Source of the DNA: Ignavibacteriota bacterium
GTDB taxonomy: Bacteria > Bacteroidota > Ignavibacteria > UBA10030
Direction of reading: 5' to 3'
DNA length: 37,261 bases
NCBI GenBank assembly: GCA_003142475.1
Contig: PLMK01000069.1
Coordinates: forward strand, 1-37,261
The notes below the pieces were generated by a model. That model was given only the letters and a program-made list of their open reading frames with translations, made no database searches and had not been told where the DNA came from. Shown piece by piece: positions 28,052 to 34,379 of the stretch. Position numbers and translations under genes: made by a program. How positions within the stretch are numbered: position 1 is the stretch's first letter; every line of letters begins with the position of its first letter.

Positions 28052-28504
28052 CTACCAGGGAAGCTCTTCAATTGATTCAATAATCTCATTAAATGAAACC
28101 ATACGGGTTTCTTCACTTTTGGTGATAAAAGTTAAAATATCACCTTCTATTCCACTAAGTTTGGCGACGATTTCAATAATTTTATCGTTCTTTCGATAAC
28201 GCACACGAAATTGTCTTCCTATATTTTTTCGATATTGCCTTAATAGTATAAGCGGCTTCGTTAAATCAGGAGAAGACACTTCCAATACATACGAACTCGG
28301 AATAATGTTCTGAAGTTCAAGCGCTTCACCAACATTTCGACTCAGTTCAGTGCATTGACCAATCGTGATACCTAAATCGGTATCTACAAAGAGCTGCACA
28401 GTTTTTTGCTGTTCATCGTGTACAATATGAATATCGACGATGAATGCATCGATTATGCTGAGGAAAGGAGCCGCTATTTCTTCAATCTTTTGTTGTAGAT
28501 CCAT
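28052..28504 (-). CDS. rimP: Ribosome maturation factor RimP
   Basis: RimP assists 30S assembly. The protein of about 150 residues has the N-terminal domain ending in LELQNIIPSSYVLEVSSPDLTKPLILLRQYRKNIG split at the conserved EVSSPDLTKPL, then an Sm-like barrel. The ATG at 28504 is preceded by an in-frame TTG; GGA lies 8-11 nt upstream, so either could serve. It is the first gene of rimP-nusA-infB-rbfA-truB-ribF-rpsO-pnp. Its leader of about 55 nt holds a strong intrinsic terminator. Confidence 0.92.
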   Translation of the reverse strand: MDLQQKIEEIAAPFLSIIDAFIVDIHIVHDEQQKTVQLFVDTDLGITIGQCTELSRNVGEALELQNIIPSSYVLEVSSPDLTKPLILLRQYRKNIGRQFRVRYRKNDKIIEIVAKLSGIEGDILTFITKSEETRMVSFNEIIESIEELPW

Positions 28505-28518
28505 CAACTCAGGATTCC

Positions 28519-28548
28519 AAAAAAAATAGCCCGTCTACCTCGGGCTAT
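28519..28548 (-). terminator. Intrinsic terminator in front of rimP
   Basis: On the minus strand an 8-bp perfect stem (ATAGCCCG/CGGGCTAT, loop 7) is followed by eight T. It is the most convincing terminator of the window. It would end transcripts from the LOG operon. Because the rimP promoter lies upstream of it, it also lies inside the rimP leader. Confidence 0.88.
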
Positions 28549-28565
28549 CTACATCAACTGTATAT

Positions 28566-28594
28566 AATATACACAATGACCTTTGAAGAAGCAA
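28566..28594 (-). promoter_or_regulatory. Candidate promoter for rimP-nusA-infB operon
   Basis: Minus-strand TTGCTT (28594-28589), 17 bp, TATATT (28571-28566). Initiation near 28559 gives a leader of about 55 nt that folds into the terminator at 28548-28519. Both hexamers match the cdd promoter exactly. Confidence 0.55.
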
Positions 28595-28632: not shown

Positions 28633-29361
28633 TTAGAAATTTTTAATCATGACATTTTTCTTGTAAAAATTCTCAATAATTACAGCCGCCTCGACCGGAT
28701 CATCGGTCACATGAAACATATCTATATCTCCGGCGGATATCATTTTCTCTTGAACGACAGTCATTTTAATCCAATCAACAAGGCCTTTCCAGTAATCAGA
28801 CCCCATAAGGACAATCGGAAACGCTTGTGTTTTTTGGGTCTGCATCAGTGTCATTGCTTCAAAAAATTCGTCAAGCGTACCAAATCCTCCTGGCATAACG
28901 ATAAATCCATGGGCATACTTAACAAACATCACTTTGCGTACAAAGAAATGTCTAAAAGTTTGTAATCTCCCATGATCAACATATTTATTTATGTTTTCTT
29001 CATGCGGTAATTCGATAGCGACACCAACAGAATCACCTTTTTGTACTTGGGCTCCTTTATTTGCCGCTTCCATGATACCGGGACCACCGCCCGTGAGCAC
29101 ATTAAAGCCATGTTTGACGAGTTCTTTTGCAACCTGCACTGCAAGTTGGTAGTAGCGCGATTGAGGTTTCAGTCGAGCTGAGCCAAATACAGAAACGAGA
29201 TTTTTTTGTTTCGCCATCATGGTGAACCCATCAACAAATTCTGCCATAACTCGAAAGATGCGCCATACATCATCCTGCGCTGCAAGGATTTCCCTGAGAT
29301 GTTGATCTTGCTGCGCATCGTAGTCTGTTCGGGATTGATGGTTTGTTTTTTTGCTTTTCAT
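28633..29361 (-). CDS. TIGR00730/LOG family protein
   Basis: The 242-residue Rossmann-like protein carries the LOG signatures GGGPGIMEAANKGA and PGGFGTLDEFFE. LOG proteins release free base from N6-modified AMP (cytokinin nucleotides in plants) or act as nucleotide 5'-monophosphate hydrolases. The bacterial substrate here is unknown. The longer N-terminal part (about 60 residues before FGSARL) is common in the bacterial subgroup. A strong AAGGAG Shine-Dalgarno precedes ATG 29361. It is the last gene of the acyP-to-LOG run, 11 bp after ltaE, and is followed by the terminator before rimP. Confidence 0.88.
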   Translation of the reverse strand: MKSKKTNHQSRTDYDAQQDQHLREILAAQDDVWRIFRVMAEFVDGFTMMAKQKNLVSVFGSARLKPQSRYYQLAVQVAKELVKHGFNVLTGGGPGIMEAANKGAQVQKGDSVGVAIELPHEENINKYVDHGRLQTFRHFFVRKVMFVKYAHGFIVMPGGFGTLDEFFEAMTLMQTQKTQAFPIVLMGSDYWKGLVDWIKMTVVQEKMISAGDIDMFHVTDDPVEAAVIIENFYKKNVMIKNF

Positions 29362-34214: not shown

Positions 34215-34298
34215 TGCCCGGTGCGAGACTTGAACTCGCATGCCCTTACGGACGCCACCCCCTCAAGATGGTGTGTCTGCCAGTTCCACCAACCGGGC
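34215..34298 (-). tRNA. tRNA-Leu (GAG)
   Basis: An 84-nt class II tRNA: acceptor GCCCGGT/ACCGGGC, GGTGGAACTGGCAGAC D region, anticodon stem CCATC/GGTGG with loop TTGAGGG (anticodon GAG), a long variable arm, and GTTCAAGTC in the T loop. The 3' CCA is not encoded. Confidence 0.93.
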
Positions 34299-34307
34299 AA
34301 AGAAATG

Positions 34308-34379
34308 TGAGCGTGGGTGGGCTCGAACCACCGACCCTTTGCTTAAAAGGCAAATGCTCTACCCCTGAGCTACACGCTC
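34308..34379 (-). tRNA. tRNA-Lys (TTT)
   Basis: A 72-nt tRNA: acceptor GAGCGTG/CACGCTC, GTAGCTCAGGGGTAGAGC D arm, anticodon loop CTTTTAA (TTT, lysine) and GGTTCGAGCC T arm. The 3' CCA is not encoded. tRNA-Leu follows 9 nt downstream on the same transcript. Confidence 0.94.

Follow-up and report, generated by a model that had tools for sequence, protein, structure and literature searches.

The 5' UTR of rimP-nusA-infB in an Ignavibacteriota bacterium probably encodes a minimal transcription attenuator, close to its promoter, for the gene row rimP-nusA-infB-rbfA-truB-ribF-rpsO-pnp, with feedback by NusA as the most likely form of control. We analyzed a contig of 37,261 nucleotides (hereafter, the window), in which this 5' UTR contains both a hairpin that resembles a Rho-independent terminator and a stretch of U. 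The hairpin and the promoter that precedes it are conserved in related bacteria, and their presence does not depend on which gene lies upstream.

Layout of the rimP leader

The features discussed below are as follows.

28594-28589, minus strand: -35 element TTGCTT, read directly from the sequence
28571-28566, minus strand: -10 element TATATT, after a 17-bp spacer from the -35 element
about 28559-28558, minus strand: predicted transcription start, placed by its spacing to the -10 element
28550-28524, minus strand: terminator-like hairpin, AGATAGCCCG / CGGGCTATTT, with an A-U/G-U base and a loop of 7
28526-28519, minus strand: tract of eight T, read directly; a leader RNA of about 40 nt is predicted to end here
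28504-28052, minus strand: rimP, the operon's first gene (NCBIfam RimP models, best E = 2.4e-20; all 25 of the RimP matches listed score below the curated cutoffs)
28016-26589, minus strand: nusA (TIGR01953, 369 bits, above the cutoff)
26561-23865, minus strand: infB, encoding IF-2 (TIGR00487, 830.8 bits, above the cutoff)
29361-28633, minus strand: LOG-like gene of the TIGR00730 family, upstream of the leader (TIGR00730, 146.9 bits, above the cutoff)

According to NCBIfam, the genes after rimP are nusA, infB, rbfA, truB, ribF, and pnp; from the gene order, we take an 89-amino-acid frame at 21776-21507 to be rpsO. The ATG of rimP, at 28504, is 14 nt past the T tract. One codon before it is an in-frame TTG, which is TTC in a close relative (L025). 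Elsewhere in the window, positions 1-228 and 34215-34379 hold two tRNA genes and, at the edge, the 3' portion of a tmRNA.

The stem of the hairpin (ATAGCCCG/CGGGCTAT) has eight Watson-Crick pairs, five of them G-C, and encloses the loop AGGTAGA. With one extra G-U pair and one extra A-U pair, which use the first three T, the stem reaches 10 pairs. The G-C pairs are confined to the upper half of the stem, and the base is A-U/G-U. The initial annotation had described a promoter, a GC-rich hairpin, eight T, and the start of rimP in close succession; we read the same elements, except that "GC-rich" is true of only the upper half of the stem. The hairpin ranks first among 12 terminator-like sites listed in 10 kb (shuffles: mean 6.9, standard deviation 2.4). 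For the 42-nt leader, the folding energy is -13.9 kcal/mol (z = -3.9), and none of 200 shuffles was as stable. Within these 42 nt, the hairpin is the only structure that folds, and no antiterminator structure was seen; the hairpin still forms in 120 nt comprising the leader and the start of the coding region. We rejected a start-stop reading frame (ATG-TAG) just 5' of the hairpin, which, by eye, is not conserved among relatives.

Conservation of the hairpin

We compared the leader with two sets of relatives. The named set began with 80 loci around NusA, of which 3 were short of upstream DNA and 4 had no rimP frame. The hairpin is present in 71 of the other 73 loci, and the two exceptions (L006 and L053) can be explained, as their contigs begin near or inside rimP. 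For the phylum sample, we searched 247 genomes, found NusA in 246, and took 75 regions among the matches listed; 72 of these have a rimP frame (L155, L156, and L161 do not). The 145 leaders were reduced to 136 distinct ones by removing those that were too short (L006, L011, L012, L039, and L053), contained N (L016), or were duplicates (L112, L113, and L117). The named loci and the phylum sample share species.

A terminator-like hairpin with a score of at least 18 was found in 117 of the 136 leaders: 66 of 67 from named relatives and 51 of 69 from the phylum sample. (These counts include L078, whose frame is probably not rimP.) In comparison, this score was reached by 1.4% of 2,720 shuffled leaders and, among 404 windows placed within genes or upstream of them, by 2.5%. 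The finder demands a T-rich tail, so the presence of the T tract is not separate evidence. Of the 19 leaders with lower scores, we examined some by eye: in six (L076, L143, L153, L163, L169, and L180), there is a hairpin that lies outside the fixed window or has a long loop, and in two (L128 and L135), no hairpin was visible. We also sampled 20 genomes from six further families that are absent from the phylum matches listed. The narrow fixed window gave only 7 of 20, because rimP is longer in these families; a wider window with longer loops gave 18 of 20 at a score of 18 (3.3% of 400 shuffles) and 20 of 20 at a score of 16 (11% of the shuffles). Since a MAFFT alignment of all the stem classes was out of register, our claim of conservation rests on the frequency of hairpins relative to these controls.

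Stem sequence and T tract

Within the window's family, the stem is nearly invariant. More broadly, there are 23 different 5-bp stem cores, with both G-C polarities: in the stems that a script picked from 127 leaders, the 5' arm is C-rich in 72, G-rich in 49, and even in 6 (L061 was mispicked). Other families of the same order have the stem AAGTCCC/GGGACTT (for example, L114-L116), and the added families mostly have GTGGG...CCCAC or GAGGGG...CCCCTC, which resembles the stems at L063-L071 and L080 (KSB1 and Ruminococcaceae loci). So the hairpin and its position are conserved while its sequence and polarity shift between clades. The inverted stem of the window may be a derived form. In some distant families (L217-L223), the leaders contain GAAAGTGGGG..CCCCACTTTTTTTGTTT or similar, which is near the published Firmicutes signature.

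The T tract is interrupted in 72 of 127 leaders and in 2 of 7 ordinary terminators, a control that is too small for comparison. The window's own tract is an uninterrupted T8. Among L026-L186, the tract is often TTTTTGTTTG or TTTTTTATTA, and a break after 4-7 T recurs across classes. In L119-L140, from the window's class, the tract reaches within a few bases of the apparent ATG of rimP (as in L121, ...GGGCGATTTTTGTTTGTATG), which leaves almost no room for a ribosome site between them.

The hairpin is specific to rimP

The pattern TAGCCC-N3-12-GGGCTATTTTT occurs in 29 of 32 genomes of the window's family, at 31 places in total. One of these (G029, L205) lies elsewhere, with no match to rimP or nusA nearby. 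Another (G031 contig 121, L204) is in a second contig copy of the LOG-leader-rimP start, and by eye its rimP is cut off.

We also built a covariance model, R1, from 37 leaders. In a search of 98 genomes of the order, with strict filters and 64 candidates scored per genome, R1 had 49 matches in 48 genomes, all of them at rimP. In the window's family, 29 of the 30 matches lie 481-586 nt before nusA, and the remaining one is the contig copy in G031. In a sister family, 17 of the 19 matches lie before rimP and nusA, and the other two are L112 and L113. The families with the AAGTCCC/GGGACTT stem had no R1 match. Most of the matched leaders, or near copies of them, were in the model, so their recovery is not a test; the absence of other matches is.

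Evidence for the promoter

Of the 12 consensus bases, the promoter has 8. It is absent from the 21 sites that a consensus scan reported, and the scan itself did no better than on shuffles (23.5 sites expected). Taken alone, the sequence backs the hairpin but not the promoter; from the window alone the promoter proves nothing, and it is conservation that makes it credible. In 52 of 66 named relatives, a spacer of exactly 17 bp separates TTG[AC]NN from TAT[AC]TT, and every other spacer length between 10 and 25 occurs in 0-2 of them; this test disregards the distance to the hairpin. The columns of the spacer average 0.20 bits, versus 0.76-1.7 bits at the hexamer positions that the search left free. 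In 61 aligned promoters, the -10 element is TATATT in 44 and TATCTT in 10. If the hairpin is taken into account, the distance from the end of TTG-N16-18-TAnn[AT]T to the outer G-C pair is 3-45 nt (median, 18 nt) in 62 of 66 named loci, versus 6.5% of shuffles. Conservation of the layout of promoter and terminator among relatives was a check that the initial annotation had proposed.

In the phylum sample, 44 of 61 leaders have a sigma70-like pair near the hairpin (8.2% of shuffles), 34 of 61 have TAnnTTTG, which has been named as the Bacteroidota box (PMC9723704) (3.9% of shuffles), and 53 of 61 have one or the other. In the six further families, a promoter-like box was found at most 45 nt from the hairpin in only 8 of 20 leaders (using the narrow fixed window), and by eye, several of these have a longer stretch 5' of the hairpin. 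Thus, the tight layout characterizes the window's class and many other families but does not extend to the phylum as a whole. We also considered a second promoter formed by the Bacteroidota -7 box, TAnnTTTG, within the T tract, since some relatives (such as L032) have TATTTTTG, but by eye this sequence does not occur in the window's family, and we rejected the idea.

A proposed mechanism

From these elements, we infer the following. RNA polymerase would start near 28559, make about 40 nt of RNA, and reach the hairpin and the U tract; it would then either release a short leader RNA or read through into rimP. The controlled quantity would be the efficiency of termination. Because the hairpin starts about 9-10 nt from the predicted 5' end of the RNA, there is hardly room 5' of it for an aptamer, a leader peptide, or an antiterminator, and control would be exerted through factors bound to the polymerase. 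NusA, perhaps with NusG, would be the most likely factor and would close a negative feedback loop. NusA is a plausible controller by analogy: in Bacillus subtilis, nusA is controlled by intrinsic termination in the operon's leader, which NusA itself stimulates (PMC12288461), and the short leader RNA from the rimP-nusA operon of Streptococcus agalactiae was read as NusA feedback (PMC4448216). In Escherichia coli, the transcripts of the operon rise when termination by NusA is reduced (PMC6511841). As far as genome comparison can tell, attenuation in the rimP leader, which the initial annotation had proposed, is well supported: the hairpin and the promoter are conserved, including at 11 of 71 loci where the upstream gene is divergent.

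Alternative explanations

Those 11 loci bear on the simplest alternative, which is that the hairpin simply terminates transcription of the upstream gene, lies between the rimP promoter and rimP by coincidence, and has no regulatory role. Such a terminator needs a gene on the same strand. The window has one (LOG), and across the 71 loci, the nearest matching upstream gene is LOG on the same strand in 18, another same-strand query gene in 32 (some of which are the query's own locus), smpB in divergent orientation in 11, and no match in 10. Among the 32 same-strand genes are presumably a threonine aldolase and thioesterase-like, TrpG-like, and TPR-like proteins, among others. The divergent loci (L045, L047, L048, L049, L051, L052, L054, L056, L057, L058, and L073) keep both the promoter and the hairpin, and the hairpin cannot serve smpB there. 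(The divergent gene of L051 matches SmpB from Pfam. In this sister clade, a single short intergenic region is common to smpB, a gene of trans-translation, and the rimP-nusA operon.) Since the upstream gene varies among relatives while the hairpin stays, the hairpin is not there for the upstream gene's sake. Also, the conserved promoter precedes the hairpin, so that all of its transcripts cross it, as the initial annotation had noted, and the T tract is only 14 nt from the ATG. A plain terminator is therefore quite unlikely. The further claim that the terminator also ends the LOG operon is possible for the window, where LOG ends at 28633 on the same strand, but this is not the reason that the hairpin is conserved. 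It is still less likely that the hairpin is a stem-loop at the 5' end of the mRNA that, with the U-rich stretch, protects the message or aids ribosome binding and does not terminate transcription. In favor of this, the hairpin would start no more than about 10 nt from the predicted 5' end, and the U tract is close to the start codon (in 107 leaders, the outer G-C pair and the first ATG in frame are a median of 24 nt apart). However, a G-C stem with T-rich sequence directly after it is the form of a terminator (although the finder itself asks for T), and the S. agalactiae leader of the same operon ends transcripts at an intrinsic terminator (PMC4448216).

If the leader is an attenuator, it might be set by something other than NusA: by NusG, RimP, a ribosomal protein, temperature, or growth rate. 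An A-U/G-U stem base and interrupted T tracts are features that have been linked to Nus-dependent terminators (PMC8060035, PMC8745188). More specifically, A-U/G-U stem bases and interrupted U tracts have been tied to NusG-dependent termination, and the interrupted tracts resemble those of NusA-dependent terminators (PMC8060035). The window has the A-U/G-U base, which in that study points to NusG rather than NusA, and the T-rich tracts of the TTNTTT type, together with this base, fit NusG-dependent terminators; as for interrupted tracts, the comparison for the 72 of 127 leaders is again with the control of n = 7. NusG is thus a serious alternative to NusA, or a partner. On the other hand, NusA is encoded in the operon and regulates itself by leader termination in B. 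subtilis (PMC12288461), and a large separate sensor would not fit in so short a leader. Overall, we consider control by something other than NusA to be unlikely. Against control by any factor, the uninterrupted T8 and the good stem could make termination largely independent of factors. A doubtful variant of NusA control is that the short distance between promoter and terminator acts as the sensor: after about 40 nt, the polymerase is only just clear of the promoter, and whether NusA has replaced sigma on it by then would decide termination. If so, the leader would report free NusA directly and would need no RNA-binding site; this would account for the retention of the short distance and the hairpin among the window's relatives despite the change of stem and polarity between clades. 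The longer stretch before the hairpin in several distant families (by eye) makes this less likely.

Comparison with known systems

No match to the rimP-leader family (RF01770) was found in the window or, at E ≤ 0.001, anywhere in its genome; a control from E. coli was detected. Matches to other Rfam families were below threshold, and we take them to be due to chance; the best was rteR, at 22.6 bits versus a threshold of 72. Separately, the rimP leader of a KSB1-like genome (L071:2380-2516) had 33.9 bits for L20_leader (gathering cutoff, 58.7), which is probably chance.

The rimP-leader was described by Naville and Gautheret in 2010 (PMC2965389) as a terminator-like hairpin and U tract that lie 4-130 nt from the start codon; its general form was presented without a visible antiterminator, and NusA was proposed as the controller. 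The window's leader is alike in having a terminator-like hairpin in the same 5' UTR, of rimP-nusA-infB, with no antiterminator. However, the published stem signature is GGGc...gCCC, and the window has the inverse, CCCg...cGGG. The upstream hairpin of the tandem rimP-leader in Gammaproteobacteria shares the window's polarity, but that leader has two hairpins and an antiterminator, while the window has one hairpin (PMC2965389). The main text of that study does not contain Bacteroid-, Ignavi-, Cytophag-, or Flavobact-, and Chlorobia appears once, for hisS. Among the openly licensed papers listed, we found no account of this form of leader in Ignavibacteria or across Bacteroidota. Within the phylum, a structured, transcribed region 5' of rimP has been reported in Flavobacterium psychrophilum and other genera of Flavobacteriaceae, described as having no Rfam hit (PMC9723704); like the window's leader, it is from Bacteroidota, is at rimP, and has no match in Rfam.

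Among the Firmicutes, RNA-seq of the S. agalactiae rimP-nusA leader identified short and long RNAs from one start, with termination at 31 nt at a predicted intrinsic terminator (PMC4448216); there, termination was measured, whereas in the window it is predicted. The B. subtilis leader is given as 180 nt (PMC2965389), versus about 40 nt predicted for the window. As these sources describe them, the rimP-leader, the 31-nt terminated leader of S. agalactiae, and NusA autoregulation in B. subtilis make the window's leader one of a known kind. What is new is the Ignavibacteria-like version, with an inverted stem that is C-rich on the 5' side, no match in Rfam, and a promoter directly before the hairpin. 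The inverse stem also shows that the published signature can be dispensed with, and this speaks against recognition of a single fixed sequence in one arm. The attenuator known from Firmicutes and Gammaproteobacteria would thereby extend to families throughout the phylum Bacteroidota, and in the window's lineage, it would be reduced to a promoter, a hairpin, and a start codon within about 90 bp.
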